Positions 2,873 to 54,572 of a stretch of DNA of 64,000 nt are shown here, one piece after another (the first letter of the stretch is position 1; each line of letters begins with the position of its first letter). The notes beneath the pieces are model-generated. The model was not told where the DNA came from. It did no database searches and saw only the letters and a program-made list of their open reading frames with translations. The position numbers and the translations under genes were made by a program. The stretch is from a virus. The stretch covers positions 1 to 64,000 of IMG/VR virus record IMGVR_UViG_3300031576_000007. The stretch is one strand, 5' to 3'.

Positions 2873-4573
2873 ATGGCAACCTGTTATTCATGTGATAGAT
2901 CTTTAAATAAAATAGAATATAAACTTGACGGGGAATCTGTATGTAAGCGCTGTTATTTCCAAAATACAACTGAATGCTTCGAGTGCGGTAATGTGGTAAA
3001 TAATAATAATAATATTACGATGTTAGGTAATAAAAATACACCATATTGTGCTACATGTGCCGAGGATTATTTTGCGTGCGTAAAATGTGAATCGGTAAAA
3101 AACAAAGAGGAATCAATCAATGTAAATGATGATTTTCTCTGTCAAGAATGTTTTGATGAATATTATATAAACTGTGTCAGTTGTAACTTAATTTATTCAA
3201 AAAATAATTCTATTCATGTGGACACTGGAAATGTAACTGAAGGAGACTATTGTCAGGGGTGCTACTCAAGGAACCTATTCCAGTGTTTTAATTGTCAGGG
3301 TCATTTTAATCTTAATGAGAGTTATACTGACCCTGACAATAACCATAGGTGTAATAACTGTTTCAGTGATTATGTATCTATTTGTGTAAATTGTAATGGT
3401 GTATATTGGGCTGATGATAATGAAATTATGTATACCGAAAACGGTACTTTTTGCGTGGATTGCGGGGCTCCTTTCAAGTTTGAAGAGTCTTCATCATTTC
3501 AAATAAATAATTCTAAAAGATTTGTGGGCTTCGAGTTAGAGTATTTGATACCAACACAAAGAGATCCAAGCCGAATAAAAATACTCAGTAAATATGGGAA
3601 AGTACAAGACGATGGTAGTATAAGTCCAACAGGAAAGATAGGTGGATACGGTGAGGAATTCGCAAGCAATGTTTTTAGCGGTGATTTATTGCTAGAAACT
3701 ATAGATAAAGTGTGTGAAAGTCTAAGCAATAGCGGAGCAAAAATTAACAAAACTTGCGGGCTCCATGTACATTTAGATATGAGGAGAGAGACAGAAATCG
3801 CGCAAGAGAACATATTCTATGCTTGGCAAGCTTTCGAAAAGATATTTTTTGCCGTTACTTCTATTTCGAGGAGGGGTAATCATTTTTGTAGATCGATAGA
3901 TAATTCTAGAACTTACGAAATCGCCAAGGGTATGGGTAGATATAATACTCTTAATGTCACCGCCTATGACAAGCATCAAACATTTGAAATAAGACTACAC
4001 CAATCTACATTAGAACCAACAAATATAAAGAATTGGGTAATGTTTCTAATAAGATTTTTTGATACATATTCAAAAATAAAAATGACAAGAGAGCGAATAA
4101 TAGAACTTACAAAAATGTCTGACAGGGAATTATTGCTAATGTTATTTTCACAAATTAAAATGCCTTTCGGTCTCAAAAAATATATAATGAAGAGAATTGA
4201 ACGTTTTAATAAGGATTCTAAAAATCAATTACTTCCCAGGTCTTATTTTGTGATAGATGAAGAAAAAGAGGACGAAAAAATACGGCAGATAATTTTAGAA
4301 AACAAAGTAACATATACTAATTTAAATGAAAAAAACTATAATGCTCTTTCTGAATATTATTTAGAAAAGTATAACGTAAGTGCTTTACAGGAAGTTCTCA
4401 GAAATTGCCAATGTGCTAACTGTGATAAAATTATAAGTGAAGGAGCTCGTTTCCTTAGCGCAGAAAAGGGGGTATTCTTGTATGATGGTAAACTTCAAGA
4501 ATTAATATCACACACAGTTTCAGAAGCTAAATTAAAAATGTATGAATCAAAGACAGAAAACAAAGGGAGCTAA
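2873..4573 (+). CDS. Cys-rich amidoligase-family protein
   Basis: A 566-residue two-part protein. Residues 1-205 hold about six treble-clef or LIM-like CxxC...CxxC units (CKRCYF, CFECGN, CATC, CVKCES, CQECFD, CVSCN and so on), likely zinc-binding and interaction modules. From about residue 215 comes an amidoligase_2-like domain with FVGFELEYLIP, DDGSI, EEFAS and CGLHVHLD, matching the Glu/His-rich metal-ATP site of this glutamine-synthetase-like fold. Members are predicted to form amide bonds between a carboxylate and an amine on peptides or cell-wall components. The next gene, 5 nt downstream, is a glutamine amidotransferase, a known partner that could supply ammonia or modify the product. 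The substrate is unknown. Confidence 0.8.
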   Translation: MATCYSCDRSLNKIEYKLDGESVCKRCYFQNTTECFECGNVVNNNNNITMLGNKNTPYCATCAEDYFACVKCESVKNKEESINVNDDFLCQECFDEYYINCVSCNLIYSKNNSIHVDTGNVTEGDYCQGCYSRNLFQCFNCQGHFNLNESYTDPDNNHRCNNCFSDYVSICVNCNGVYWADDNEIMYTENGTFCVDCGAPFKFEESSSFQINNSKRFVGFELEYLIPTQRDPSRIKILSKYGKVQDDGSISPTGKIGGYGEEFASNVFSGDLLLETIDKVCESLSNSGAKINKTCGLHVHLDMRRETEIAQENIFYAWQAFEKIFFAVTSISRRGNHFCRSIDNSRTYEIAKGMGRYNTLNVTAYDKHQTFEIRLHQSTLEPTNIKNWVMFLIRFFDTYSKIKMTRERIIELTKMSDRELLLMLFSQIKMPFGLKKYIMKRIERFNKDSKNQLLPRSYFVIDEEKEDEKIRQIILENKVTYTNLNEKNYNALSEYYLEKYNVSALQEVLRNCQCANCDKIISEGARFLSAEKGVFLYDGKLQELISHTVSEAKLKMYESKTENKGS

Positions 4574-4578
4574 AAAAC

Positions 4579-5670
4579 ATGTGTAGCATTTCAGGCTTTA
4601 TAAGTAATAGTCCAATTGATAAAAATCTAGCCAAAAGGCTTTCAAAAGCTCTTTTGTTTTATGGTAGGGAAAGAGGAGAACAGAGCGCGGGCATATATGT
4701 AAATGGTGTTGTAACAAAACAAGCTGTTGATCCAGCCGTATTTGTAGAAACTGATAGTTTTTCTAAAGCCTTTGAAGGTAATGATCCAATAATGGTTTTG
4801 TGTCATACCCGTCAACCTACTTGCGGCGATAGAACAGATAAACAAGCTCAACCATTCAGACAAGGGGAAGTAACAACAATTCACAATGGTTGCTTTTTCA
4901 ATATAAAAGGGTTAAAGAATGAATGGAATTTAAAAAAGACTAGCGGGGTAGATTCTGAGTTAGTAACCTCATTCATTAATCAATATGGGGTACAAAAACT
5001 TCCAGAATTCATCAAATCTACTGACGGGCCTAGCGCAATAGCGGCGATTGTAAATGGGGAATTGTTTATAGCTAAAGCTGGTAATCCTTTGGTGTGCACT
5101 TCTTTAGTGTTTAAGGGGGGTCAAAGATTATTAGTTTTTGCATCAACTAAAACCATCTTAGAAAATGCACTTAAATACTGTCTACTTGTCGGTAGGATCA
5201 AAATAAAAGAGCCTGAAGATGGTGGGTTATTTAGAGTAACCCCTAAGAGATTAAAAAAGATATGTGGTGGTATGCGGCCAAATTATGGTTATGGTGATTT
5301 TGAATTTGAAGGTATTTGGAGGAAAGAATATTCAAGTCACCATAAAGGGTATTTCGATGATAATGATATATATAGAGGCAGTGAAGAAGAAGATGAAAAG
5401 GATAACGAAATGTATGATACTTATGATATGGTCACAAGATCATGGACGGACAAAAAACATAAAAGGATTCATGAAATGACTGATTTAGAGCTGGAAAAAG
5501 AAGTTACCACTATAAATTACCCTATGGTGATAAAAAAATATGAATTGAAGAAACTAGAGAATAAAATGGTGACATGCTCTGGTCCTGACGAAGAATTACA
5601 AAATATTTGGGAAGAGTACGAAAAGTTGGACAAAGAAATAAAAGAAATGGGCGGATATGATAAGAAATAA
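4579..5670 (+). CDS. class II glutamine amidotransferase
   Basis: A 363-residue Ntn-hydrolase-fold protein beginning MCSISGF. Cys2 becomes the N-terminal nucleophile after Met removal. Further hallmarks are GRERGEQSAGIY, CHTRQPTCG and TIHNGCFFN (about residue 101), as in GlmS/PurF-type glutaminase domains that release ammonia from glutamine. The C-terminal about 130 residues (after FRVTPKRLKK) are charged and match no synthase domain I know, so this is a stand-alone amidotransferase. It directly follows the amidoligase gene, so the two probably act together in a peptide- or protein-modifying reaction. The pairing is known from phage and bacterial amidoligase operons. Confidence 0.85.
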   Translation: MCSISGFISNSPIDKNLAKRLSKALLFYGRERGEQSAGIYVNGVVTKQAVDPAVFVETDSFSKAFEGNDPIMVLCHTRQPTCGDRTDKQAQPFRQGEVTTIHNGCFFNIKGLKNEWNLKKTSGVDSELVTSFINQYGVQKLPEFIKSTDGPSAIAAIVNGELFIAKAGNPLVCTSLVFKGGQRLLVFASTKTILENALKYCLLVGRIKIKEPEDGGLFRVTPKRLKKICGGMRPNYGYGDFEFEGIWRKEYSSHHKGYFDDNDIYRGSEEEDEKDNEMYDTYDMVTRSWTDKKHKRIHEMTDLELEKEVTTINYPMVIKKYELKKLENKMVTCSGPDEELQNIWEEYEKLDKEIKEMGGYDKK

Positions 5671-5836
5671 AGAAAGAAAAAGTGGAGAGGCAAAGAAGAC
5701 TCTAAAAGAGATTAGAAAACTAGATAAAGAAATAATAGCGGAAAGGTTATTAAAAAAAGTAGCGACTCTCTTAAATATTAAATTTGAACTTTTGGTAAAG
5801 TATATTCATGATCTGAGAGGGGATATGATAAACTAG
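5657..5836 (+). CDS. hypothetical basic helical protein
   Basis: A 59-residue frame from ATG 5657 (overlapping the amidotransferase end by 14 nt) to TAG 5834-5836, with the next ATG immediately after. The product is strongly helical and basic (EAKKTLKEIRKLDKEIIAERLLKKV). No family recognised. Confidence 0.5.
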   Translation: MIRNKERKSGEAKKTLKEIRKLDKEIIAERLLKKVATLLNIKFELLVKYIHDLRGDMIN

Positions 5837-7723: not shown

Positions 7724-7996
7724 ATGATAGCTAAGAAAGACTTAATAGATTTATGTTATTATGTAGGACATTGTAGAAATTCAAGAGTAGTTATGTGGGT
7801 TGAGGATAGACAAGTATTTATGTACATTAGAAGCAAGTTTGGGGTATATTTTCCTGAAACTATTAAACATCCTGATGATGAAAAAGTCTATGATGTATTC
7901 AGGCCATTTCATCGTATCGGTTTTGAGGATCTCTATGAAAAATTTAGGGAGATAACCACAATGGAAAAATATAAAGTTATTGACAGTGACTTCTAA
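7724..7996 (+). CDS. hypothetical protein, 90 aa
   Basis: The first gene after the repeat region. The 90-residue product is mixed alpha/beta and aromatic-rich (VGHCRNSRVVMWVEDRQVFMYI; FHRIGFEDLYEKFREI). A TATAAT at 7686-7691 lies upstream without a good -35. No family recognised. Confidence 0.5.
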   Translation: MIAKKDLIDLCYYVGHCRNSRVVMWVEDRQVFMYIRSKFGVYFPETIKHPDDEKVYDVFRPFHRIGFEDLYEKFREITTMEKYKVIDSDF

Positions 7997-8014
7997 TTGT
8001 GAGATAAAAGAGAT

Positions 8015-8554
8015 ATGACATACGCAGAACCTTCAGAAAGATGCAAAAGTTGTGGGTCACGTAAGTTTTGTATGAGAACAAATGGTTTATCATGCAGAGT
8101 ATGTGGGCAAATTATAAAGACGAAACCAGTTGAAAAGATTGAAGAATTTAACAATTTATTTGTTGTAAAAGGACCTAAGACTATATATTCACAGCATAAA
8201 GCATATGGTTTTTTTGTTCCAGAAGGAAAGTTTGCTATAGCCGCAGTTGAAATAGATAAGAAAGGGGCTCAAATAGAGGTATCAAGACTACCAATGGTTC
8301 TGGATAATGAATCATCAGCTAATAGTTTTGTTAAGTCTCTTAAGTTTGCTAACTTAGAAAAGCCCAAATTCTCACCAGAAGTTGAATTTGAAAAAGAAGG
8401 TACACAAGAAAAACAAGATAGAGTTTTTGAAGAGGGTCACGTAATATTTACATGTGATGAATGTTTGGGCATCTTCTCGGTTAACCCTGGTAAAATTGGA
8501 TGTTCTAGTAATTTATTAGGGTGCCCCCGCTGTGGAAATGTGATTACAAGATGA
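8015..8554 (+). CDS. protein with two zinc ribbons
   Basis: A 179-residue protein. The N-terminus has CKSCGSRKFC and CRVCG (about residues 10-31), and the C-terminus has CDECLGIFSV...CSSNLLGCPRCG, giving two zinc ribbons around a beta-rich middle. This is typical of phage nucleic-acid or protein-binding adaptors. It overlaps the next gene by four bases. No specific family. Confidence 0.55.
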   Translation: MTYAEPSERCKSCGSRKFCMRTNGLSCRVCGQIIKTKPVEKIEEFNNLFVVKGPKTIYSQHKAYGFFVPEGKFAIAAVEIDKKGAQIEVSRLPMVLDNESSANSFVKSLKFANLEKPKFSPEVEFEKEGTQEKQDRVFEEGHVIFTCDECLGIFSVNPGKIGCSSNLLGCPRCGNVITR

Positions 8555-9880: not shown

Positions 9881-10999
9881 ATGGCTAGTATTTCCACTGT
9901 TATGAAAATTCTTGAAGCAAGCAGACTTTCTGGTGTGGCTATATGGGTTTGGGGGGCTCATGGTTGTGGGAAGAGTGAAACTGTTATGGGTGCAAGCGAT
10001 AAACTGCATATAAATACAATTGACATTAGATCTGCATTAACAGAAGCGGGGGATTGGCTGGGTTTACCAGCTACTTCTAGAGACTCACAAGGTAAAGCGA
10101 TTGCTGAGTATTACATGTCTTCCTTTCTCCCCCAAGATCCTAACTGGAAGGGGTTTATCTTCCTTGATGAGCTTAATAGAGCGAGACCAGATGTGTTAAA
10201 TTGTGTGTTCCAATTAGTTTTAAACCGTAGAATCATGAATCATTATATGTTACCAGCTGGTGCTACTATTGTAGCTGCTGGTAACCCCTCTGATGATGAT
10301 TATCAAGTAACTGATGTTGACCCAGCCCTTCTTAGTAGATTTTGCCATATCTCCTTAACTTCTCCCCGTGAAGAATGGCTTAGTTACGCAAAAACAAATG
10401 TCAGGGACGATATACGTTCTTTTATTTCTTCGTCTGACGCAAAGACATTAGACCACAAAGTAAAAGAGTTTGATATCAGTTTGATTACCCCAAATAGAAG
10501 AGGTTGGACTATGCTCTCAAAAATGGTTGATGCTCTTGAAAAACTAGGGTACTTAGATGAATGTTTAATTGATGTTGCTTCTGGTTTAATAGGTTCTAAC
10601 TTTGCGGTTCAGTTTGAACAATTCAGAAATTCAAGTTATGCTAGAATCGATGTTGACAAGATACTTCCTGCATACGAATCTATAAGAGATCAAGTAAAAA
10701 AGTTTGTTGAAGATGGTAGATTGCCGGAACAAGCAGAAGCAATAGAAATACTTTTTGAAAAGATCAAATTGAATGATGAAAAAGTTGTGGAGGATAACAA
10801 ACAGTTTAAAAACTTGATGATGTTTGTGACAGATATTGCTCAAGACGTAGCTTATCATGCCGCGCAAAAGATTACTGAAAGATGTCCTCATATCATGACC
10901 AAAATACTCGATGGAGTACAAAAAAAAGAAGAATACTCACTAAAGTTTTTTAATGTAATACAAGATCTACATAATATTGGAAGGGGTAAACAAAAATGA
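9881..10999 (+). CDS. MoxR-like AAA+ ATPase
   Basis: A 372-residue AAA+ protein with Walker A WGAHGCGKSE (about residues 23-33), Walker B FLDELNRA (about 93-100), a sensor-like AAGNP and VDPALLSRF. The order matches MoxR-type ATPases. These work as chaperone-like remodelling machines together with VWA-domain proteins. The VWA partner is two genes downstream and the operon has its own promoter. The C-terminal helical half is less conserved. The target is unknown. Confidence 0.85.
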   Translation: MASISTVMKILEASRLSGVAIWVWGAHGCGKSETVMGASDKLHINTIDIRSALTEAGDWLGLPATSRDSQGKAIAEYYMSSFLPQDPNWKGFIFLDELNRARPDVLNCVFQLVLNRRIMNHYMLPAGATIVAAGNPSDDDYQVTDVDPALLSRFCHISLTSPREEWLSYAKTNVRDDIRSFISSSDAKTLDHKVKEFDISLITPNRRGWTMLSKMVDALEKLGYLDECLIDVASGLIGSNFAVQFEQFRNSSYARIDVDKILPAYESIRDQVKKFVEDGRLPEQAEAIEILFEKIKLNDEKVVEDNKQFKNLMMFVTDIAQDVAYHAAQKITERCPHIMTKILDGVQKKEEYSLKFFNVIQDLHNIGRGKQK

Positions 11000-11349
11000 A
11001 AAAGACAGAGTTAGAGAATATAACTAAAGAAACTTTCAAAGGACTACTTTCAATTCTTAAATCATCAAAAAACTTTATAGTAGGGGAAGCTCCTTTAGTT
11101 GCAAAAGAAATTGTATTAGCGGAAAGGGTGAGTAGTATATTTTGGGTTACTGGTTCTTTCTTGCTTATTTCATGTGGTTATTTGATATTATATTTCACTT
11201 TTACAAGTGAGGCAAAAGAAATGGGTTTAGTAGTAGGTATAGCGATTGGTATCATAGGACCAGCTACTTTAATTCACAATTTGTATAATCTTGTACTAAC
11301 TTTCGTAGCACCGCGAATTGTAATGAATAAACATGGTGATGGATTATGA
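10996..11349 (+). CDS. hypothetical membrane protein between MoxR and VWA genes
   Basis: A 117-residue protein overlapping the ATPase stop (ATGA). Two membrane helices (SIFWVTGSFLLISCGYLILYF and GLVVGIAIGIIGPATLI) follow an amphipathic N-terminus. Its place inside the MoxR-VWA operon suggests that it tethers the complex to the membrane, but no family is recognised. Confidence 0.6.
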   Translation: MKKTELENITKETFKGLLSILKSSKNFIVGEAPLVAKEIVLAERVSSIFWVTGSFLLISCGYLILYFTFTSEAKEMGLVVGIAIGIIGPATLIHNLYNLVLTFVAPRIVMNKHGDGL

Positions 11350-11522
11350 CTCTAGAAGACTTTGAAAAAGAGTTCAGAAATATTCTTAACGAAACCCATA
11401 ACTACGATGCTCTTAGAGATGAGATGGACGTGGAATATGCTGTAACAACTGCGTGGTTAGCATTTGGAAGGCTTAATGTCAAAAGAATTGCAAAAGAAGA
11501 ATCAGACAAAAACAGAAATTGA
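11346..11522 (+). CDS. hypothetical acidic protein, 58 aa
   Basis: ATG 11346 overlaps the previous TGA (ATGA). The frame runs to TGA 11520-11522 and overlaps the next gene by 47 nt. The product is helical and acidic (MTLEDFEKEFRNILNE; VEYAVTTAWLAFGRL). The overlap is unusually long, so the C-terminal part may be fortuitous, but a start-stop overlap supports translation. Confidence 0.4.
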   Translation: MTLEDFEKEFRNILNETHNYDALRDEMDVEYAVTTAWLAFGRLNVKRIAKEESDKNRN

Positions 11523-14046
11523 AGTTCTCTTAACTGAATTTGAAAAAAAATATGAGGAAGCAAGAGAAAAGGCTAATAAATATTTAACTGCTGCTGTGTA
11601 TTCCTTACTTCAAAGTCATGCATTTATTGGTCACATACTTCAAATGCTAAACAGAAAAATAGATATGTCTGTTCCTACTGCCGCAGTAGGGGTTATAAAT
11701 AATAAATACACCCTATTCATCAATCCATTTTTTTATTCTTCATTAACTATTGAAGAAGCCATAGCAATATTGCGTCATGAATGCTATCACCTTATTTGCG
11801 ATCATTTAAAACGAATAAAAGAATGTGACCCTAATATTTGGAGTATTGCATGTTTACCCGCTGGAGAACTAATTACTGGTGTTAATAAATGTATAGAACT
11901 AGTTTCTAATAATGAGATGGTACTATCTTCAAGCGGGTATACTAGAGTTTCTAATACTATGAATAGAAACTATTCAGGAAACTTATTTACAATTAAAGCA
12001 AGTGGTTGTTTACCAATAAGAGTAACAGATGAACATCCGATAAAAGTCAAAGAGAGGAAACAAATAAAAAAATACCCTATTATATTTTCTAAAGGAGAAG
12101 TTTGGAAAGAGGCGAATAAACTAAGAGAAAAAGTTGACTACGTATTAATTCCAAAACTTAAAGGCAATACAAATATAGATAAAATTAATTTAGATGAGTT
12201 TATTATGCACTCTTCAATTAACAGAACAGAAATATCTAATAGATGTATGATTAGAGAGCTTAAGGTTGATAATGATTTAGCTTGGATATTAGGTTTATAC
12301 ACCGCTGAAGGAAGTAGAGCAACAAAAAATAACAATAGCTTAGATTTTTCTTTATCTTCTAAAGAAACAAATCTTCACGATAATATAAAAACTTATTTTT
12401 CAAATTTAGGATACAGCGTTAGATGTTATATTAGAAATAATAGTGCTAAAGTTACCGCTCAGTCTACAATACTCTCAAGAGCATTTGAAAAATGGTGTGG
12501 TAAAGGCGCTCACAATAAAAAAATTCCAGATTTCATTTTGAACCATAATGATCTTTCACTAGTTAAGTCTTTTATTGATGGGTATATAGAAGGTGATGGG
12601 TGTTATAAGAAACGAGATAGTTTTTTAAGTGGAACAGTAAGTAAAACGCTGGCTTTACAATTACAGCTATCATATGCTAGAATGGGGAAATTTGCTTCTG
12701 TTAGACAATCAAACAGAGGCGAACGATTATTAAGAGGCAAAATTCTTAAACCATACACTATTTTTGAGATAGAATATATACCTATTCATTCAAGCAAAAG
12801 ATTATTTAAAAATTATACTATAAAAAGTACAAACCATAGATGGAAAGATTTTGGTAATTATTTAGGTGTACCAATTACTTCTATTACTAGCACCCCTTTT
12901 AATGGTAGAGTTTATAATTTAGAAACAGAATCACACGAGTTTGCAGTTAGTAATTTAATCACTCACAACTGTGATATGGCAATAAATATTTTTATCCCCA
13001 ATCTGCCAAAATTTGATCACAAAACGGCGGTAGAAGATGGAATGAAGAGACACGGACTATTAGAAGAAGATATGAAGAAACATTTACCAAAACCGGATAT
13101 GGACGGTAAATGTACCTCTGCTCTTTTACCTAGACATTTTAATATGCCAGATGGTAGAACTGCTGAATGGTATTATAAAACTATAATGAATGACCCAAAA
13201 TTAAGAGATAAATTTAAATCTAAGAAGATATTAATAAAAGTATACGAACCTAATGAAGAAAATAATAGTGGGAGTAAAGAAAACCCACAAAGCCTGAAAG
13301 ATCAATTAGATAGTGGAAGAGCTATTTTGGATGTACAAAGTGATGGTGACCACAATAAATGGCAACAATGCCAGGCGCACTCTCAGCAATTGATAGATGA
13401 AGAGTTAAAAAGGATTATAAGAGAGGCAAAAGACTTAGCTCCAAAAAGCTTTTCTACTCTTCCAGGGGATATGGTAAGCACAATACAAAACTTTCTAAAA
13501 AGTAAAAATAATTGGAAAGGAGTATTAAGATCTTGGATTCAACGCGCTACTGAAGTTCTAAGAGTTAATACAAGAAAAAGACCTTCTAGGAGATATGGGA
13601 TTATTTACCCAGGTCAACGTTCAGATTTTAGGTTAAATTTATCTGTGGTTGCTGACTCTAGTGGTTCTATCTCAGATAAAGATCTAGCTCTTATGGGGGG
13701 TGAAATAAATAGATTATTCGAAACAAAGATGGCTAACATAACTGTAATCGTAGGTGATTATGTTGTACAAAAAGTAACCAAAATGACCAAACTACTTACT
13801 CCAAAAGATTTTAAGTTCCCAGGAAGGGGAGGGACAAATGCTCAACCATGGTTAGAGGAAGCTGACAAACAAAACGCTGACGCTGTTATAATATTAACTG
13901 ACGGTGAATTTGATTATAAGCTAAAACGACCAAAATGCTTGGTGTTGTGGGCTCTAACGACTCGGGGAATTGAAGAGGAGAATTTTAAATCAAGAGTCCC
14001 ATTCGGGAAAGTTATAAAACTTTCACAAGAGGAAAAAAATGGCTAA
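11476..14046 (+). CDS. DUF2201-like metallopeptidase/VWA protein precursor containing an intein
   Basis: An 856-residue precursor; 483 residues remain after removal of the 373-residue intein. The N-extein has a zinc-metallopeptidase-like HECYHLICDH (HExxH...H, about residues 100-109). The C-extein carries a VWA fold with the MIDAS motif VVADSSGSIS and later LTDGEFD, plus a linker rich in K/S. This layout matches DUF2201 proteins (putative metallopeptidase plus VWA-like domain) that pair with MoxR ATPases, as here. ATG 11476 is preferred to the in-frame TTG 11464 because GGAAGG lies 8 nt upstream. The intein interrupts IWSIA/CDMAIN just after the metal site. Confidence 0.85.
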   Translation: MSKELQKKNQTKTEIEVLLTEFEKKYEEAREKANKYLTAAVYSLLQSHAFIGHILQMLNRKIDMSVPTAAVGVINNKYTLFINPFFYSSLTIEEAIAILRHECYHLICDHLKRIKECDPNIWSIACLPAGELITGVNKCIELVSNNEMVLSSSGYTRVSNTMNRNYSGNLFTIKASGCLPIRVTDEHPIKVKERKQIKKYPIIFSKGEVWKEANKLREKVDYVLIPKLKGNTNIDKINLDEFIMHSSINRTEISNRCMIRELKVDNDLAWILGLYTAEGSRATKNNNSLDFSLSSKETNLHDNIKTYFSNLGYSVRCYIRNNSAKVTAQSTILSRAFEKWCGKGAHNKKIPDFILNHNDLSLVKSFIDGYIEGDGCYKKRDSFLSGTVSKTLALQLQLSYARMGKFASVRQSNRGERLLRGKILKPYTIFEIEYIPIHSSKRLFKNYTIKSTNHRWKDFGNYLGVPITSITSTPFNGRVYNLETESHEFAVSNLITHNCDMAINIFIPNLPKFDHKTAVEDGMKRHGLLEEDMKKHLPKPDMDGKCTSALLPRHFNMPDGRTAEWYYKTIMNDPKLRDKFKSKKILIKVYEPNEENNSGSKENPQSLKDQLDSGRAILDVQSDGDHNKWQQCQAHSQQLIDEELKRIIREAKDLAPKSFSTLPGDMVSTIQNFLKSKNNWKGVLRSWIQRATEVLRVNTRKRPSRRYGIIYPGQRSDFRLNLSVVADSSGSISDKDLALMGGEINRLFETKMANITVIVGDYVVQKVTKMTKLLTPKDFKFPGRGGTNAQPWLEEADKQNADAVIILTDGEFDYKLKRPKCLVLWALTTRGIEEENFKSRVPFGKVIKLSQEEKNG
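11851..12969 (+). mobile_element. intein with LAGLIDADG endonuclease in the VWA/metallopeptidase gene
   Basis: 373 residues from Cys1 (CLPAGELITG) to the terminal THN, followed by Cys+1 of the C-extein. Block B has VTDEHPI (TxxH) and block F/G has YNLETESHEF...LITHN. Two LAGLIDADG helices are visible, LGLYTAEGS and FIDGYIEGDG, each with an acidic residue, so the homing endonuclease looks intact. Splicing would join IWSIA to CDMAIN. Confidence 0.9.
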
Positions 14047-19107: not shown

Positions 19108-19424
19108 TGAAGTGGGATACCAAGATAAAGCGTGTATCTAATGGGTATCTGTTAGAAATACCAAACGAGCGTGGTAAGCTAGAGCAGGTTATATTTGAAG
19201 ATGGTGAAAGAGACATTGATGATTTTAGGCCAGGCGGGGAACAGATAGATTCTTTTGCAGGACTACTATGGTTTATACAAGAACAAATAGGACCGTGTAG
19301 TGGTAGATATGATAAGAGGCGTCTGTACATAGTAATTAAACCTGGTGATAAGCACGAAGATTTTACCGAAGAACACTCAAAAGAGATATGGGGGGGCGAT
19401 GTTACGAAGCGTGGTAAAACATAA
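19107..19424 (+). CDS. conserved phage hypothetical protein, 105 aa
   Basis: Starts at TAATG and overlaps the peptide deformylase start by 26 nt. Beta-rich N-terminus (IKRVSNGYLLEIPNERGK) followed by IEDGERD-like acidic and GPCSGRYDKRRLYI segments. It resembles a common small phage family with unknown role. Confidence 0.55.
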   Translation: MKWDTKIKRVSNGYLLEIPNERGKLEQVIFEDGERDIDDFRPGGEQIDSFAGLLWFIQEQIGPCSGRYDKRRLYIVIKPGDKHEDFTEEHSKEIWGGDVTKRGKT

Positions 19425-19872
19425 TCCTAAGAAACCACACAAAAGTCCTCTTAAAATTAATAAGTGTAGCCCGATAACTGATTTCTCTTATGAAGGAAAA
19501 ATATGGATAAAAAAATTGATATCCGATATGAAAGACACCTGTACATCTATGAAAGGGGTAGGTTTAGCCGCGAATCAGATAGGTGTTTACAGACAATTGA
19601 TTTTGATAGCTGAACCTAAGAAACCTCATATTATAATGATTAACCCTAGAGTTATAGATAGTTATGGTGATATCATAGAGGAAAAAGAAGGATGTTTATC
19701 AGTTCCTGGGGTGTACGGAATAGTTAAACGACACCAATATGTAGTTGTTGAATTTAAAGATATAAATGGGGATGATAAAACATCTATATGTTGTGGCTAT
19801 GAAGCTCGTATAGTTTCCCATGAAATAGGACATTTAAATAATGAACTTTGCATAGAAAGATTTGAGAAATGA
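19399..19872 (+). CDS. def: peptide deformylase
   Basis: A 157-residue metalloenzyme that removes the formyl group from N-terminal Met of new proteins. All three signature motifs are present: GVGLAANQIG (about residue 49), EGCLSVPG (metal-binding Cys) and HEIGH (two His ligands and catalytic Glu). The last reads HEIGH where most members have HEIDH. ATG 19399 is preferred over 19345 because a G-rich ribosome-binding site precedes it. Phage deformylases are known mainly from marine cyanophages. This copy lacks a long C-terminal helix. Confidence 0.9.
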   Translation: MLRSVVKHNPKKPHKSPLKINKCSPITDFSYEGKIWIKKLISDMKDTCTSMKGVGLAANQIGVYRQLILIAEPKKPHIIMINPRVIDSYGDIIEEKEGCLSVPGVYGIVKRHQYVVVEFKDINGDDKTSICCGYEARIVSHEIGHLNNELCIERFEK

Positions 19873-27864: not shown

Positions 27865-29904
27865 ATGGATATAGAATGGAAGAGATACCCGCATATCGAA
27901 CGACTTGATAGTCAAGAAGTAGAAGGTTTATTATTACTTCCAGAAATTTGGGTAGAGCCTAAAATCGACGGTTGTTTTGAATATGACACAAAAATTCTTC
28001 TTTCAGATGGTTCTTATAAAAACATAGGAACTATAGTAAATAAAAACTTAAATGTAGATGTTTTAAGTTATGATATAACTAAAAAAGAGCTTGTCCCACA
28101 AAAAATTATTGGTAAATTTAAATATAAGGCTGAACCATACGATTGGATGACCATAAAAGTTAAAGGAATTGTTGGTGATTTACAAAGTGGTGGCGGTAGG
28201 GATAAACACTTACGATGTACAAAAAATCATAAATTCATAACAAGTTTGACCCCCTTCCAAGAAACTATGGCTAAAGATTTAAAAAATAATGACGAAGTTT
28301 TTATTCCCCAAAAGTTCCCTTCTATGGTTCAATCTCAAGTAATACTGGGAACTTTATTGGGAGATGGCTTTGCTTATCCTAATAATAAAAACATTTATTG
28401 TAATGGAATTTGTTTTAGCCACAGCATAAAACAATTAGAATATTTAAAATTTAAAAAAACACTCCTTGGCGGGCTCTGGAAAACAGGAAAAGGGTATATA
28501 AGCAGGTATGGGTCAATCGTTATTAGATCTACTACAAAATGTAATAAAATTACTCAATTTCTCTATGAAAAGGTATACTTAAATAATAAAAAAAATATAA
28601 CTAAAAAATTATTATTAAACTTAAATTCTCTTGGATTGGCTATTTGGTACATGGATGACGGTTCGTTAGCCCATAGTCCTGCTCAACAGGACAGAGCGAT
28701 ATTCCATACCTCTGGTTTTCTTGATGATGAACAAAATATCATATGCCAATATTTTAATGATCATGGGTATAGGTCTAGTATACAAAATGCAGATGGGTAT
28801 AAAATTATTGTGCTAGACTCTATTGGAACTCAAAATTTATTTTCCGATATTGGACAATATATTATTCCAAGTATGCAATATAAATTATCTAAAAACTTTA
28901 GAGATCGATTTACCCCTATTAAAGATACTGAAAAAATTAATCCAAGCGGGTTAATAAAAAGAAAAATTATTGAAATAAAACCATATATTCTACCAGGGTA
29001 TAAACCAAAATCTAAATATAAATATGATTTAGAAATTGAAAATACACATCTTTATTTTGCTAACAATGTTTTGGTACACAATTCTAACGCGTCAGTATTA
29101 AGAAAGAACGGTTCTTTAAATGTTGCAAAAAGAAGCCAAATAATTGGAGAAGGTGATGATTTTAGAGGTCTCAAAACTCATATACAAACTAATGCCAACA
29201 ATTTCAATAAGTTTTTTGATAAACATCCTAATACTATAGTATACGGCGAATTTTTAATAAAACATACAATTGGCTTCTATCGTCCCCAGGCCTTTAACAA
29301 ATTTTATGCTTTTGATATTTTAGATTTAGAAACTAATAGATTTCTGAGGCCCGATACTAGAGTAGAGTTCCTTAAAGAATTTGATATAAATCTAGTCCCA
29401 CCCCTTGCAAAAATTAAAGGCCCTATTTCTGGCGATGATCACATAGAACGATTACAACAAATGGCTAATTCGAATAAATATCTTATTGATGAAACTGATA
29501 AAGTTGGAGAAGGTATCGTAATAAAGAGCTTCAATAATGATATTCCTTATACTAATAAGTATGGTAGAACTACTTGGGGTAAAATTGTTAGGCAGGAATT
29601 TAAAGAGGCCCACTCAGTTGAAATGGGTGTAGCAGATTTATCTTTTAAAGAACAGAAGGAACAAATTTTTTCTGAGATATTTGTAACTGAGGGTAGAATA
29701 GAAAAGATAAAGCAAAAAATAATGTTTGAGAAAGGTACTAGATGGGATTCTAAATATATTGGAGAATTATTGGGCAGAGTTTATAATGATGTGTTTACTG
29801 AAGAGCTTTGGGGATTCGTAAAAAAGGAAAAAATTGTAAATATAAATTTTAAGACCCTTAATCAAATGGTTATAATAAGAACTAAACAGATTTTAGGCTT
29901 ATAG
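27865..29904 (+). CDS. RNA ligase precursor containing an intein
   Basis: A 679-residue precursor; 309 residues after splicing. The joined extein reads EPKIDGSNASV, the nucleotidyltransferase motif I with Lys33 as AMP acceptor. It is followed by YGEFL (motif III-like), EGIVIKSF (motif IV) and WGKIVRQEF (motif V). This fits T4 Rnl2-like/DraRnl RNA ligases, which seal nicks or breaks in RNA. Starts at ATG 27865 after GGAGGAGG. The intein sits right after KIDG, inside the active-site motif. A partner polynucleotide kinase is not evident nearby. Confidence 0.85.
   Translation: MDIEWKRYPHIERLDSQEVEGLLLLPEIWVEPKIDGCFEYDTKILLSDGSYKNIGTIVNKNLNVDVLSYDITKKELVPQKIIGKFKYKAEPYDWMTIKVKGIVGDLQSGGGRDKHLRCTKNHKFITSLTPFQETMAKDLKNNDEVFIPQKFPSMVQSQVILGTLLGDGFAYPNNKNIYCNGICFSHSIKQLEYLKFKKTLLGGLWKTGKGYISRYGSIVIRSTTKCNKITQFLYEKVYLNNKKNITKKLLLNLNSLGLAIWYMDDGSLAHSPAQQDRAIFHTSGFLDDEQNIICQYFNDHGYRSSIQNADGYKIIVLDSIGTQNLFSDIGQYIIPSMQYKLSKNFRDRFTPIKDTEKINPSGLIKRKIIEIKPYILPGYKPKSKYKYDLEIENTHLYFANNVLVHNSNASVLRKNGSLNVAKRSQIIGEGDDFRGLKTHIQTNANNFNKFFDKHPNTIVYGEFLIKHTIGFYRPQAFNKFYAFDILDLETNRFLRPDTRVEFLKEFDINLVPPLAKIKGPISGDDHIERLQQMANSNKYLIDETDKVGEGIVIKSFNNDIPYTNKYGRTTWGKIVRQEFKEAHSVEMGVADLSFKEQKEQIFSEIFVTEGRIEKIKQKIMFEKGTRWDSKYIGELLGRVYNDVFTEELWGFVKKEKIVNINFKTLNQMVIIRTKQILGL
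27973..29082 (+). mobile_element. intein with LAGLIDADG endonuclease in RNA ligase
   Basis: 370 residues from Cys1 (CFEYDTKILLSDG) to terminal LVHN, with Ser+1 following. Block B CTKNHKF, block F YDLEIENTH. LAGLIDADG helices LGTLLGDGF and AIWYMDDGS both keep an acidic residue. Insertion is between KIDG and SNAS of motif I, so the ligase cannot work before splicing. Confidence 0.9.
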
Positions 29905-33063: not shown

Positions 33064-35895
33064 ATGTCTTATCCTTTTAGAAATGAACTATCAGAATTCG
33101 TGTTCTATCGGACCTATGCGAGGTGGTTAGATAGAGAAAAACGAAGAGAAACTTGGGATGAAGTTACAGAAAGATATTTTAACAATGTAATAAATAAGCA
33201 TAAGGACACAGTTCCTAGAAAGATACAGGCAGAAATAAAAGATAATATTTTTAAAATGGCTTCCATGCCCTCTATGAGAGGGTTGTGGTGTGCTGGTCCA
33301 GCTCTAGATATATCGAATGTGTGCTTGTTTAATTGCTCATATTTGCCTATAAAAGATTTATTTTCATTTGCTGAAATGTTGTATATACTATGCTGCGGGA
33401 CAGGTGTAGGTTTTAGTGTGGAAGAAGAAAACATAACCCAACTTCCTGAAATACAGAGACAAACTAGTGCAGGTGCAGGAATACACGAGGTTGAAGATTC
33501 TAAAGAAGGATGGGCGGATTCTTTAATGGCTGGTCTAGAAACGTGGTTTTCAGGTAAAGATATAGAATTTAATTATGATAAAATAAGACCTAGAGGGGCT
33601 AGACTGATAACATTCGGGGGCAGAGCTTCAGGCCCAGAACCTTTAAAGAGACTTCATGAATTTTCAAAAAAGATTATACTAGAAGCCCAAGGTAGAAAAC
33701 TAACCAGTCTTGAATGTCATGATATATGTTGTAAAATTGCCGAAATCGTTGTAGTTGGTGGGGTGAGACGTTCAAGCCTAGCAAGTTTTAGCGATTTAAA
33801 TGACGAGTTACTAATGAAAGCTAAAAATCCTCCTTTTCCTTCTCATAGGTATATGAGTAATAATTCTGCTGTCTACACTAAAAAACCAGATAGTGTTACT
33901 TTCATGAGAGAGTGGTATAATTTGGCGGCATCTGGGACAGGGGAACGGGGTATATATAATATACCTAATTTAAGTAATTATGCACCTAGAAGAATTTTTA
34001 CAGGTAAGGAGAGAAGCAATCCTTGTTTCGAAATTATATTGAAGCCATTCGAATTTTGTGTAGCCGGGGATACTCCTTTGATTCACAAAACAGGTATTTT
34101 AAATATTAAGAATGCTGTAAACAAGCCCATAGAAATATGGAATGGAGAAAAATGGAGCTTAGTAACTGTACGTAGAACCAGAAGGGACCAAAAACTAGTA
34201 CGAGTAACCTTAACTGATGGTTCTTACTTAGACTGCACTCCAGATCATAGGTTTTCAGTTAAAACAAGATTTATGAAATATTTTAAAGAAGTTCCTGCAA
34301 GTAGACTATTAAATAGCGATTATTCTTTACAATGTGAAAATTTTTCAATAGATAATATAGGAGGAATTAGAGCAGAAGACGCATATGATATTGGATTCTC
34401 CGTTGGGGACGGTTTTATACAAAAAAATATGGTGTATGCTAACTTATATGGAGAAAAAGATAAAAAATGCCCAATTAAGGGGATTCGTTATAAAGAATAT
34501 CTTCCTAAAGGATATAGTGTGTCTAAAATAAGAATTAAAACAGGTTTAGACGCTACACTCATTTCTTCGCTTAAAACAGATTCTAATGCTAGTGATATTT
34601 TATTTACATGGGATAGGCCCTCTGTTTTGAAATTTATAGCTGGTTTAGCTGACGCTGATGGATCAGAAACAAAAACAGGTGGCATACGCATTTATATAAG
34701 TGACGAAAAAAGAGTACGAAAGTTTCAACTTCTATTAACTAAAAATGGTATTAGATCTTCTGTTAATCTTTTACAGAAAAAAGGAACCAGAACCAATTTA
34801 TCAGTCCGTAAAAAAGATTTATGGTACTTACAGATTACAGAGTGCAATGAAATTCCTTGTTTTAGATTAGATACTTCGGGGGGGCATAAAACTAAATATA
34901 AAGGAAAATACCAAAATATAAAATCAGTTGTTTTATTGAGGGGGTTACATGATACATATTGTTTTAATGAACCAGAAAAACACAAAGGAGTATTTTCAAA
35001 TGTGTTAACCTATCAATGTAATCTATCAGACGTTGTTGTAAGGGCATCAGATTCATTTGATGATTTGGTAGATAAGGTTAGAGCAGCTACTTGGATCTGC
35101 GCTATCCAATCAACTTTTACTAATTTTAAATATATACGATCAGAATGGAAAAGCAACTGTGACGAAGAAAGGCTACTTGGGGTTTCATTAACAGGCCAGT
35201 TAGATAATCCAAAACTACTTAGCGAGGAAAAATTACAGATATTGAAAGAATATTCTATAAAAACAGCTAAAAAAGCAGCGGAAGCACTAAAGATAAATTT
35301 ATCGGCAGCTATAACAACAACCAAACCAAGTGGCACTGTTTCTCAATTAGTTGATTCAGCATCAGGGTGTCATCCAAGATACTCTAAATTTTATACAAGA
35401 AGGGTACGAATTTCTGATACAGATCCTTTATTTAAAATGATGAGAGCGCAGGGGGTCAAATTTGAACCAGAAGTAGATCAGGACCCTAAAAATCCGGATA
35501 CCTGGGTAGTCTCTTTTCCTGTTAAATCACCTAAAAATTCTATAACTAGGGATGAGATGACGGCTATTGAACAACTTAACTGGTATAGGAAACTTCAAAA
35601 TAATTGGTCTGAGCATAATAATAGTGTTACAATTTATGTAAAAGAAAACGAATGGCCAGAAGTCGGATCATATGTTTATAAACATTTTGATGAAATAGTT
35701 GGGGTAAGTTTTTTACCTTATGATGGTGGTAAATATAAATTGGCTCCTTATGAAATGATAACTGAAGAGGAATATAACAAAAATAAGGAAAAATTCCCAA
35801 AAATAAATTATTCTGACCTTTATAAGTATGAGGAAGAAGATAATACTGAAGGAGCTAAATCATACGCTTGTATAGGAGATCGTTGCGAGATATGA
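33064..35895 (+). CDS. nrdJ: class II (B12-dependent) ribonucleotide reductase precursor with intein
   Basis: 943 residues; 623 after splicing. It has NVCLFNCSYLPI, GTGVGFS, EIVVVGGVRRSS and RGIYNIPN, then NPCFEIILKPFEF/CNLSDVVVR across the intein, then TKPSGTVSQLVDSASGCHPR, and FLPYDGGKYKLAPYE near the end. The last two blocks are typical of monomeric adenosylcobalamin-dependent ribonucleoside-triphosphate reductases. The C-terminal CIGDRC could be the redox-shuttle pair. The enzyme needs host cobalamin and no separate radical subunit. Somewhat shorter than the usual 700-740 residues. Confidence 0.9.
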   Translation: MSYPFRNELSEFVFYRTYARWLDREKRRETWDEVTERYFNNVINKHKDTVPRKIQAEIKDNIFKMASMPSMRGLWCAGPALDISNVCLFNCSYLPIKDLFSFAEMLYILCCGTGVGFSVEEENITQLPEIQRQTSAGAGIHEVEDSKEGWADSLMAGLETWFSGKDIEFNYDKIRPRGARLITFGGRASGPEPLKRLHEFSKKIILEAQGRKLTSLECHDICCKIAEIVVVGGVRRSSLASFSDLNDELLMKAKNPPFPSHRYMSNNSAVYTKKPDSVTFMREWYNLAASGTGERGIYNIPNLSNYAPRRIFTGKERSNPCFEIILKPFEFCVAGDTPLIHKTGILNIKNAVNKPIEIWNGEKWSLVTVRRTRRDQKLVRVTLTDGSYLDCTPDHRFSVKTRFMKYFKEVPASRLLNSDYSLQCENFSIDNIGGIRAEDAYDIGFSVGDGFIQKNMVYANLYGEKDKKCPIKGIRYKEYLPKGYSVSKIRIKTGLDATLISSLKTDSNASDILFTWDRPSVLKFIAGLADADGSETKTGGIRIYISDEKRVRKFQLLLTKNGIRSSVNLLQKKGTRTNLSVRKKDLWYLQITECNEIPCFRLDTSGGHKTKYKGKYQNIKSVVLLRGLHDTYCFNEPEKHKGVFSNVLTYQCNLSDVVVRASDSFDDLVDKVRAATWICAIQSTFTNFKYIRSEWKSNCDEERLLGVSLTGQLDNPKLLSEEKLQILKEYSIKTAKKAAEALKINLSAAITTTKPSGTVSQLVDSASGCHPRYSKFYTRRVRISDTDPLFKMMRAQGVKFEPEVDQDPKNPDTWVVSFPVKSPKNSITRDEMTAIEQLNWYRKLQNNWSEHNNSVTIYVKENEWPEVGSYVYKHFDEIVGVSFLPYDGGKYKLAPYEMITEEEYNKNKEKFPKINYSDLYKYEEEDNTEGAKSYACIGDRCEI
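34057..35016 (+). mobile_element. intein with LAGLIDADG endonuclease in ribonucleotide reductase, ends in Gln
   Basis: 320 residues from Cys1 (CVAGDTPLIHKTG) to LTYQ, then Cys+1. Block B CTPDHRF. Endonuclease helices IGFSVGDGF and IAGLADADGS. The last residue is Gln and the one before is Tyr, instead of the usual His-Asn, so cleavage must use Gln cyclisation, a known but rarer variant. Insertion is at the Cys of FEF/CNLSD, a highly conserved reductase site. Confidence 0.85.
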
Positions 35896-41687: not shown

Positions 41688-43670
41688 TTGAAAAAGTATG
41701 TAGAACTTAGAGTAACTCTTTCTGGGTCTCTAAGAAATAATATAGTTCCATTAACGGATCTATCTAAACATGTAGATCCCTGGAAGGATTGTTATAGAAG
41801 TGTGTTCTACTTCGACGACAATATGCTAAAATATGTTGCTGAGAATGGGTCTGTTGGTAAGTATCCTGGTAAAGTTGGTGTTGACCGGATAGCTTGGGAT
41901 CTTGATAGTCATCCTCTTGAACAGGCCCAGAAGGATGCCATTAAGATAGTTGATAGACTAGTCACTAGTTATGGAGTTAAAGAAGAAGAAATATCAGTCG
42001 CTTTTAGTGGTAGAAAAGGATTTGGTATCGAAATAAAAGTAGAGGGCATACCTTATTTCGATAATTTGTTCACTGAAAATGTTCCACTATACATAGGCCA
42101 TTTTTGCAAAGAAGTAGCTAAAGATTTAACAATTGATACATCAATTTATAGCAAAGTATTTTTATACAGAATTATTGGGACCCTCCATGATAAAGAAAGT
42201 GAAGTAGGGGGAGGGAACTTTCAGTTATTTAAAACTAATATCTCAATTAAGATGCTTCGGGACTCAACAATTGAAGAGATTAAAAAATATTGTATTGAAT
42301 ACAGAATTCCAGAGGTTTTCCCAACTATTTCCAATAGCTCAAAAATAAGCAAATCATTAGACAATATTATCAATAATTTTGATAAGATTATTAGAGAATT
42401 GCCTATTTGTAATACACCAACAGGGGGGATGCTCCATGAGGATTTAGCTCCTAAAGGACAAAAAACCTGCATTGTGAGATTATGCCAAGGAACTTATACT
42501 GAGGGACGAGATAATGCCCTTCTTAGGATAGCAGATCATGAAAAGAAGATAGGGATGCCTCCTGAAGTAGTGAAAGCAAAACTGATAGGTGTTCTTGAGC
42601 TTATGAATAAGAATGACCCAAGAAAAGCAGCTATTGACCCTATTACAGACACTGATTTAAATAGGCTAATTAATCAAATATTTTCAGGAGATTACGATTA
42701 CGGATGTTATGACGCAGTGCTTCATTCTCAGTGCAGTAAGAAGTGTTATTTAGCTTCTAGGAAGTTTAAAGAATCAACTTTAGACACAGTTTCACTAGGA
42801 GAGGCTTACCAGAGATCAAAACCATTCTTCAATAAGTATTATGAAAATATTGCCTTAACAGGGATAAAAGGAATAGATGAAAGTATGCCTCTATTCTTTG
42901 GCACATTCAACTTAATTGTTGGCAAGGCCGGAACCGGAAAAACTAGTATCATGTTGAATATATTGAAGAATTCTATAAAACAAGATATCCCAACATTATT
43001 TTTTAGTCTAGATATGAGTGAAGAAATGTTAATTCAAAGATTCGCTCCAATTCTTCTAGCTCAAGAGAGTAAACGGTTAATAAGTGGCAAAGAGTTTATG
43101 CAAGCTCATGCTAGAGGATTTAAGGATATAATAAATCAAGCCGATGACGAATTTAGTAAAGCGTCAGAAACAGTTAAGATTTCATCTAAACGTGGTCTTA
43201 CGGTTAGTATGATAAGAGATGAGATAGAACGACAAGAAGCTCTCTGGGGCAAGAAAGTAAAATTAGCTATTATAGATTATGTTCAACTATTAACTTCTGA
43301 TAAAGAGGGATTCGCCAATCATACCTTTAATGCTGAGGGCATCACTGAGTTAGCCAAGGATAAAAAAATATGTATACTAGGTCTTTCACAAGCTACAGGG
43401 GGATATAACGATCCTAATATTCTGGCTAAAGGTTCAAGAGCCTGGGAAGAGCAGACATCAACACAAGTTAATTGTTACAGACCATTTAAGGATAAGTATC
43501 CAGAGTATGATTGGACTATAGTAATGGTTATGGCTAAAAATAGATTGGGTCCATCTGATAAAGTTGAGTTATTTTTCCACGGGCCTTCAGGCATAGTTAG
43601 AGATCTAACAGAGGAAGAAAAAGAAGTTCTTATAGGTTTAAAAGATCGTTTAGAGTATGAAAACGAGTAA
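41688..43670 (+). CDS. AEP primase-DnaB helicase fusion
   Basis: 660 residues from TTG 41688 (GAGG upstream). The N-terminal half is an archaeo-eukaryotic-type primase: VDRIAWDLDSH (DxD-like metal site), SVAFSGRKGFGIEI (SxKG) and VFLYRIIGTLHDKE. The C-terminal half is a DnaB/RecA-like helicase with Walker A VGKAGTGKTS (about residue 409), Walker B LAIIDYVQLL and a polyglutamate-free arginine region (GSRAWEEQ, MAKNR). One protein could both prime and unwind at the fork. Confidence 0.8.
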   Translation: MKKYVELRVTLSGSLRNNIVPLTDLSKHVDPWKDCYRSVFYFDDNMLKYVAENGSVGKYPGKVGVDRIAWDLDSHPLEQAQKDAIKIVDRLVTSYGVKEEEISVAFSGRKGFGIEIKVEGIPYFDNLFTENVPLYIGHFCKEVAKDLTIDTSIYSKVFLYRIIGTLHDKESEVGGGNFQLFKTNISIKMLRDSTIEEIKKYCIEYRIPEVFPTISNSSKISKSLDNIINNFDKIIRELPICNTPTGGMLHEDLAPKGQKTCIVRLCQGTYTEGRDNALLRIADHEKKIGMPPEVVKAKLIGVLELMNKNDPRKAAIDPITDTDLNRLINQIFSGDYDYGCYDAVLHSQCSKKCYLASRKFKESTLDTVSLGEAYQRSKPFFNKYYENIALTGIKGIDESMPLFFGTFNLIVGKAGTGKTSIMLNILKNSIKQDIPTLFFSLDMSEEMLIQRFAPILLAQESKRLISGKEFMQAHARGFKDIINQADDEFSKASETVKISSKRGLTVSMIRDEIERQEALWGKKVKLAIIDYVQLLTSDKEGFANHTFNAEGITELAKDKKICILGLSQATGGYNDPNILAKGSRAWEEQTSTQVNCYRPFKDKYPEYDWTIVMVMAKNRLGPSDKVELFFHGPSGIVRDLTEEEKEVLIGLKDRLEYENE

Positions 43671-46600: not shown

Positions 46601-46839
46601 CTCTTGCCGCTAGTATTGTTAATCGTTCAATGATAGCTATAAAAAAAGCGTTTGAGGATGAAAAACTCGATGCAAGAATACTTTTACAAGTTCATGATGA
46701 AATAGTTTCAGAAGCAAGAAATGATCATGCTGAAAGAGCAAGACAGATAATGAAGGAAAAGATGGAAGGGACGTATAAACTTCGTGTACCCTTAGTTGCT
46801 GACCCTAAGATTGGATTTAGGTTAACTGAAATTAAATAA
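43657..46839 (+). CDS. polA: DNA polymerase I (family A) precursor with intein
   Basis: 1060 residues; 734 after splicing. A 3'-5' exonuclease (AVDTETTGSNPF at about 31, then NSPFDVIVIE and YANADADMTRRIFF) is followed by the polymerase domain. Motif A region reads GTDSGRYS/CINPNLQNLPR and GADYSQLEPRSFAH, motif B KRNIMKASLLAITYGAKK and motif C LQVHDEIVSEA. There is no 5'-3' exonuclease. The intein lies inside the conserved SGR(Y)S-NPNLQN segment. The gene overlaps the primase-helicase by 14 nt. Confidence 0.9.
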   Translation: MKTSKNYVIAKNVEEHLSVLDYLLSNPGVMAVDTETTGSNPFTCKLIGVSFSVDEGEAFYLALQKYNKELDTLESLLTEDEWFKVRIKLIEVIEHNENQLLMHNSPFDVIVIEREVGANALLRLRADTLLLKHTVDERRPHGLKKVSVSILGPEWANEQEDLKKSVIENGGKWTEELKEMYKADLDILGKYANADADMTRRIFFFLEHDLETQGLSRFFYEKEVMPLNEVTISMIKTGIRCDLDYFNKLKSDLEKEAVQLEDEAHKELSAKFQKHYDQFEKELLDSEFPLTESGLMFAKLYEEQNLPIILNQKTGKPTFSSKVLREVFDLYLDSTVLQWKMELLTREEFVKKEKDLITKSQRELYLDKEKTKHVINLSSSKQLSAILFGFLGETPIKKTDTGKPQVDEEVLEHFAPQYSFINSLLKLRKVNKLLFTYVEGILSHNIDDIVRPGWQQYGTDSGRYSCISEGQIITMPGGDKPIEQVSMGDLVYCFLKDGKPTVSKVTRVYNNGLRDCIKIQWKSKGSHRIGELICTPDHLIKTREDKWVKAVDLEKGARIYHLRRAKNLLNGRVRVYGPKYFYKTEEQLLKEEYYKFPKNYHAHHINHNKSDNRVENVQILNPFDHLSSHGKENASLGKIKWRHLTLKENRPLRLKGPKNPNWISITRYQLLKNIARNKGILTSINMDFQTLKNKIKYLGIDVNSIKLKYNSRGDYLSRGFIKNILIKSRHKKEAIKLSGVNYYKFNKLLDLYGLEENHTVISIASVGKRQVYDLEIENHHNFIANEICVHNCINPNLQNLPRDDTRIKHGIIARDGYSLVGADYSQLEPRSFAHCSGEPALIQPYIDDKYTDLYSAAAIDWFNLGCSSKEVKAKHPDKRNIMKASLLAITYGAKKWKLAKITGKTLEEADKFISDYFKKYSILDRYIAGRHGSAIKHGKVQSEAGRIRRFIDIRRLQKSRKREEQALFNKLLNTSVNFSIQSLAASIVNRSMIAIKKAFEDEKLDARILLQVHDEIVSEARNDHAERARQIMKEKMEGTYKLRVPLVADPKIGFRLTEIK
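45052..46029 (+). mobile_element. intein with HNH endonuclease in DNA polymerase
   Basis: 326 residues from Cys1 (CISEGQIITMPGG) to CVHN, then Cys+1. Block B CTPDHLI, block F VYDLEIENHHNFI. The endonuclease part lacks LAGLIDADG motifs and instead shows an HNH core, HAHHINHNKSDNRVENVQIL with a later HLSSHG, typical of phage HNH enzymes. It is thus a different endonuclease type from the other five inteins here. Confidence 0.85.
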
Positions 46840-48511: not shown

Positions 48512-48518
48512 GAGCATA

Positions 48519-54208: not shown

Positions 54209-54572
54209 GTCAGTTTCAGATATGACTATCGAAGAATTAGCGGAACAAAAATTTGAGGCTGGTAAAACATGGGTGGACGCTTGTGCTATTCACCATCGTA
54301 TGAACATTGGGTATGACAGTGGGGAAAAGCTACGAAAAATTATGGCTAAAATAAGATCTTCTCAACAACCCCCAAATGGGAAAAAAACCTGGACTCATGA
54401 CGAATTGCGCGATGCAGCGTTGGCTACAGATGAATATACCACATTCCTTAATCAGCTTAATGAAGCATACCAAGCTATGTTGGATACAGTCAATGAAAGG
54501 GATAAATGGGAAAATTTATTCGAAGGCCGGAGATCTCAGATGTCGTATGAAAAGAGCATGCTAAAATCATGA
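54198..54572 (+). CDS. hypothetical protein upstream of recA
   Basis: 124 residues from GTG 54198. Helical (MTIEELAEQKFEAGKTWVDAC; ELRDAALATDEYTTFLNQLNE) with a Cys-His pair near ACAIHHR. Overlaps recA by 4 nt (ATGA), so it may be coupled to recombination. No family. Confidence 0.5.
   Translation: MEIKSVSDMTIEELAEQKFEAGKTWVDACAIHHRMNIGYDSGEKLRKIMAKIRSSQQPPNGKKTWTHDELRDAALATDEYTTFLNQLNEAYQAMLDTVNERDKWENLFEGRRSQMSYEKSMLKS

Follow-up and report, generated by a model that had tools for sequence, protein, structure and literature searches.

Phage genes for an amidoligase and a class II glutamine amidotransferase (GAT) standing as a pair have been noted for more than a decade; such pairs are already annotated and have been published for LUZ24-like phages (PMC3890496), OM43 phages (PMC10580990) and RIO-1-like phages (PMC5498523), and their role in wall modification has only been guessed. 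The proposed function is modification of peptidoglycan, against superinfection or for lysis, for which PMC10580990, PMC5498523 and PMC11945000 refer to Iyer 2009 and Hardies 2013; the literature that we searched contained no experiment on this role. The cassette of SU10/phiEco32, LUZ24-like and RIO-1-like phages resembles the locus described here in combining an Amidoligase_2 protein with a class II GAT, but it adds a COOH-NH2 ligase, an ATP-grasp ligase and a gamma-glutamyl cyclotransferase, none of which we detect here, and the SU10 ligase lacks the N-terminal CxxC array of our protein. Closer in layout are the Arthrobacter phages Edmundo, Salgado and Ottawa, in which an Amidoligase_2 gene and a class II GAT gene adjoin, ordered as here (25–30% identity); their ligases, unlike ours, have no zinc array, and Edmundo-like phages have an additional cyclotransferase-like gene. 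Finally, EgtA/EgtC and PuuA/PuuD are cellular pairs of a GS/GCS-fold ligase and a GAT-fold hydrolase, the same partner fold classes as in the present pair. To our knowledge, these enzymes also carry no zinc array.

The locus studied here lies in a 111,989-base viral contig, the first 64 kb of which (64,000 nucleotides) form the window. The far half of the record encodes a terminase, confirmed by search at ~26% identity to known terminases, together with portal-like and baseplate-like proteins read from ORFs, which indicates that the record is a tailed phage distant from known ones. The two genes of the pair are intact, start with ATG and are separated by 5 bases, with the glutaminase downstream (Table 1). 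Overlapping the end of the GAT gene is a 59-aa ORF, a weak lead to what is perhaps a third gene common to the window and its nearest relative, L095: local alignment with the ORF at the equivalent position there (7970–8134) scored 48, against a maximum of 46 in 5000 shuffles. Directly before the ligase lies a gene (2626–2868) of the phage family DUF7249 (E = 7.5e-16), which was not seen upstream of the ligase in L095. A promoter/terminator scan gave a result at chance level. Neither protein matched any family among the PADLOC models, and a reading of the locus as an anti-phage defence system, lacking support from PADLOC, was rejected.

Table 1. Features of the amidoligase–GAT locus, in positions of the window
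Feature	Position	Strand	Basis
ORF A / P0001, 566 aa, predicted zinc-array amidoligase, whole gene	2873..4573	+	Amidoligase_2, PHROG amidoligase families
Six four-Cys modules (aa 4–197), predicted treble-clef / LIM-like zinc modules	2882..3463	+	Cys spacing, model, Foldseek
GS/GCS-fold ligase core (aa 210–450)	3500..4222	+	invariant residues, fold match
Ligase C-terminal region (aa 451–566), low-confidence helical, one CxxC	4223..4570	+	pLDDT mostly <60
ORF B / P0002, 363 aa, stand-alone class II glutamine amidotransferase, whole gene	4579..5670	+	GATase_6, invariant residues
Ntn glutaminase domain (aa 1–235)	4579..5283	+	model pLDDT mostly >90, fold matches
C-terminal extension (aa 236–363), low-confidence linker, then helical hairpin	5284..5667	+	model
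Lys-rich helical ORF, 59 aa, possibly a third gene, overlaps GAT end	5657..5836	+	weak lead

Profiles, predicted folds and residue conservation together indicate a ligase core in P0001. The protein matches Amidoligase_2 (PF12224) at 61.3 bits (cut-off 22, E = 1.6e-16) and three PHROG amidoligase families, and the Amidoligase_2 profile matches 60/60 aligned relatives; "amidoligase" as a family name itself rests on prediction. Every position invariant among these 60 relatives (E221, E223, S249, E262, G296, H298, H300, R333, R356, N361, E372 and R374) is carried by P0001. An ExE, HxH, ExR pattern supplies the metal and ATP ligands of the GS fold, and, going by this pattern, the conserved residues of P0001 would be equivalent to the GS ligands. 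In the AlphaFold model (mean pLDDT 74, with aa 210–450 mostly at 85–98), fold comparison returned YbdK/GCS2 (Z 13.4), many glutamine synthetases (Z 12–13) and plant glutamate-cysteine ligase (Z 11.7). When the core was searched as a sequence profile against solved structures, only chance-like adhesin/coiled-coil matches and no alignment to a solved ligase came back, so the core is placed by fold comparison only.

The partner, P0002, matches GATase_6 at 37 bits (cut-off 27, E = 4e-9) and begins with MC, which places Cys2 directly after the initiator Met. Its closest folds include PurF (Z 25.4 over 221 residues, rmsd 2.4), GlmS (Z 25.2) and EgtC (Z 21.8). Across 52 GAT relatives C2, R78, T81, H102, N103, G104 and D125 are invariant, and C2, R78, T81, N103, G104 and D125 of P0002 align with C1, R73, T76, N98, G99 and D123 of GlmS, where the glutamine-site residues bind the gamma-glutamyl group. 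By its residues the site is of the glutaminase type, and it would fit ammonia supply or gamma-glutamyl hydrolysis alike. The C-terminal region, already called unfamiliar in the sequence-only reading, indeed matches none of the listed families from about aa 236 to 363; its model consists of a low-confidence stretch (237–290) and then a helical hairpin (315–356), and it contains no CxxC motif, though many relatives' GATs have such motifs there.

The Cys-rich part of P0001 precedes the core. About six CxxC zinc-type modules fused to an amidoligase had been read from the sequence, and the count holds: twelve CxxC motifs (starting at aa 4, 24, 35, 59, 69, 90, 101, 127, 138, 160, 171 and 194) form six C-x2-C-x(16-22)-C-x2-C modules with 6–7 residues between one module and the next, and a thirteenth CxxC is found at aa 514 (514–517) in the C-terminal region. 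When the first 200 residues were shuffled with composition kept, 20,000 trials gave a mean of 2.7 CxxC motifs and a maximum of 11. Each of the confidently modelled modules consists of a beta hairpin and a short helix, and we infer that the array binds zinc. Its nearest folds are LIM-type, a class of folds that bind proteins; Foldseek matches the array to LIM4-5 of PINCH (7lt9_B). The likeness extends to the repeated CxxC pairs and to a weak sequence match, but LIM fingers are separated by a 2-residue linker, as opposed to ~7 residues here, and the first LIM finger is CCHC where P0001 has four Cys. Assignment as LIM domains was rejected on the all-Cys modules, the 6–7-residue linkers and a PF00412 score of 14.8 bits, under the Pfam cut-off of 22.9. 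Array spacing in relatives is likewise regular, mostly C-x2-C-x(15-24)-C-x2-C-x7. An unrelated Anaerolineae protein of 413 aa (L222, 5104–6342) also carries an array of the same kind, at its C-terminus, so that the array looks like a portable module.

Scanning viral contigs with the single sequence of either P0001 or P0002 found zero relatives; relatives were obtained by alignment-based profile scans of IMG/VR, which yielded more than 500 amidoligase relatives plus a distinct Cys-rich set. About 45 ligases in viral contigs are Cys-rich, defined as having at least four CxxC motifs ahead of the core, a definition that takes in a few proteins with no regular array (L126 and L138, with CxxCxxC runs, and L093, with an internal insert). 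Among loci picked by the ligase alone, a GAT lies within 3 kb in 23/24 Cys-rich cases vs. 16/47 Cys-poor ones (P = 4.6e-7, Fisher's exact test); being related, these loci are not wholly independent of each other, and divergent GATs, more so beside Cys-poor ligases, may escape the GAT profile. The single exception, L096, does have a GAT elsewhere on its contig, in the company of three more ligases. With the ligase gene in first place, the spacing to the GAT is usually no more than a few tens of bases; with the GAT in first place, it is usually ~300 bases; no fused ligase–GAT protein was found among the relatives. Ligases and GATs also co-diverge (Mantel r 0.67 over 79 pairs, 0/2000 permutations), a correlation confounded by shared phage history and for that reason set aside as proof of interaction. 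The sequence-only reading had assigned the enzyme classes and coupled the two proteins, and it was right on both, as judged by profiles, folds and gene adjacency; it had also made its case depend on metal/ATP-site residues in a structural model, where we find a GS/GCS fold with all family-invariant residues present, and on conservation of the pair, which the counts above bear out. Judged from sequence and models, the ligase–glutaminase pair is competent-looking and conserved.

Array spacing, ligase core and adjoining GAT are alike across the IMG/VR Cys-rich loci (L095, L078, L101, L100 and others) and in L221, a Clostridia MAG in which the two genes are 3 bases apart and near recombinase-like ORFs. 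A scan of genome contigs produced two loci only, so host range is poorly sampled. L095 shares array, ligase and GAT with the window (GATs 45% identical), and the two group with support in a tree of ligase cores. In the same tree 43/45 Cys-rich rows fall into one group of 69 rows with moderate support (86), together with 26 Cys-poor rows; because the tree needs 5–7 changes of the Cys-rich label, we make no claim that the array arose only once. Many Cys-rich loci are more elaborate than the window, which has one ligase and a GAT free of CxxC: a frequent operon runs from a Cys-rich ligase through a CxxC-bearing GAT and a ~97-aa protein to a second Cys-rich ligase. In this conserved ~97-aa protein (1934–2230 in L188; also in L189, L106, L101, L114, L120 and others) NPF and W are invariant and the hydrophobic C-terminus is conserved; it belongs to no convincing Pfam or PHROG family and could be a substrate, carrier or adaptor; a search for a counterpart in the window's record gave nothing convincing. 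Gene number goes further in two viral contigs, one with seven Cys-rich ligases and one GAT (L224, G003:C1:33000-49500), the other with four ligases and one GAT. In ten ligases of these multi-ligase contigs, the acidic, His, Arg and Asn residues that are strictly invariant are all present, with one conservative E for D at the nearly invariant D247 and some T for S at 249, while the arrays vary in length.

How much of this is new differs by part. The sequence-only reading had called the locus an undescribed system, which does not apply to phage amidoligase and GAT pairs as such, since these are published; what seems undescribed so far are the zinc-array branch and the multi-ligase loci. In the literature searched, no paper joins an amidoligase with LIM domains, an earlier mention of zinc-fused members being possible, and a structure library already includes array-like viral proteins labelled "Amidoligase enzyme" and "LIM domain containing protein".

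The explanation we favor, which we rate about evenly balanced between true and false, is that P0001 and P0002 are the two subunits of a glutamine-dependent amide ligase that docks its target through the zinc array. The N-terminal Cys of P0002 would hydrolyze glutamine to release ammonia; P0001 would use ATP to activate a carboxylate (a Glu/Asp side chain, a peptide C-terminus or similar) and join the ammonia to it; and the six-module array, itself noncatalytic, would dock the target or a partner, with ligases of differing arrays sharing one glutaminase. Ammonia as the nucleophile, a physical ligase–GAT complex, target recognition by the array and a protein or peptide target are parts of this scheme that we infer. 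That the zinc modules choose the target is plausible, since array length varies and the active site does not, and the presence of one GAT gene with up to seven ligase genes, their sites intact, suggests a common donor and differing targets. The CxxC motifs on many relatives' GATs and the protein-binding, LIM-type nature of the array's nearest folds are further points in favor; points against are that EgtC, a hydrolase supplying no ammonia, has the conserved glutamine site too, and that no ligase–GAT fusion was seen.

The main rival to a two-subunit ligase is a make-and-remove pair, in which an amine would receive a gamma-glutamyl group (or another amino acid) from the ligase and lose it again to the Ntn-fold hydrolase, as in the EgtA/EgtC and PuuA/PuuD pairs, so that a protein is reversibly tagged or a metabolite protected. 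The closest ligase folds are indeed of GCS type (YbdK and the plant enzyme, Z values above), P0002 is also close to EgtC, and GAT-site residues that bind any gamma-glutamyl group are compatible with such a role. We nevertheless consider it unlikely: PurF and GlmS, true ammonia donors, outscore EgtC, by a modest margin, and one GAT gene accompanied by up to seven ligase genes suits a common donor no less than a common eraser.

Modification of peptidoglycan or another envelope precursor, against superinfection or for lysis as supposed for the phiEco32, LUZ24 and RIO-1 cassette, is to our mind improbable as well. It is the published proposal for phage amidoligase and GAT genes (PMC10580990, PMC5498523, PMC11945000), and among host enzymes MurT/GatD, a GAT working with a ligase of another fold, amidates peptidoglycan Glu (PMC3267633). 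The partners of the wall cassette, however, were not detected. The COOH-NH2 ligase profile PF14395, which matches the SU10, Leptolyngbya and Vibrio cassette phages used as controls, has no match in the record, which may be incomplete; nor do the gamma-glutamyl cyclotransferase profiles PF06094 and PF13772, whose controls matched; and searches of the record for ATP-grasp ligases, covering some of the many ATP-grasp families, were empty. These absences weaken the wall reading slightly. In a single-sequence search of the stretches at hand around the 45 Cys-rich loci, neither an ATP-grasp nor a COOH-NH2 ligase was found (0 each), and a cyclotransferase was seen at 2/45. With its other members undetected, identification of the locus as a peptidoglycan cassette was rejected. 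In addition, a small lipid-linked substrate gives the zinc array no obvious use, and a LIM-like array makes protein targets a better fit than a small wall precursor.

The case for an array that binds DNA or RNA, with a ligase that amidates a modified base or carboxylated nucleoside, draws on general precedents: nucleic-acid binding is within the reach of treble-clef fingers, and base modification is known from phages. We think this reading very improbable, given that the array's nearest relatives are LIM-type, protein-binding folds and that no base-modification gene was recognized beside the pair in an unsystematic look.

Returning to the two-subunit ligase, a broader version of it, which we put forward tentatively and regard as rather unlikely, is that phages and some integrated elements use a modular form of protein modification in which one glutaminase serves several array-targeted amide ligases. 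Arrays of different length would direct the individual ligases to separate proteins of host or phage, an adaptor logic as in ubiquitin ligases, with carboxamide or amino-acyl groups as the marks. A putative docking array, no detected wall-cassette partners and up to seven active-looking ligases per glutaminase make the question of the target directly testable, and if the target is a protein, the pair would represent a new kind of phage-directed protein modification.

Other genes of the window also merit mention. A MoxR-type AAA ATPase and, directly after it, a metallopeptidase-vWA protein (9881–14046) make up a pair reported in jumbo phages and proposed there to be a virion-assembly chaperone (PMC7824862); here it occurs in a 112-kb phage. 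Six proteins appear to contain inteins (LAGLIDADG, HNH or Hint domains), which is unusually many for a single phage window. They are encoded by the ORFs at 11464–14046, 27865–29904, 33064–35895, 43657–46839, 54569–56575 and 58466–60700, whose host proteins are the vWA/metallopeptidase, an RNA ligase, a ribonucleotide reductase, a DNA polymerase A, RecA and an IMPDH/GMP reductase. Two separate Clp-protease-like genes lie at 48477–49343 and 51364–52092, and the phage encodes a peptide deformylase at 19345–19872 (E = 3.9e-35).
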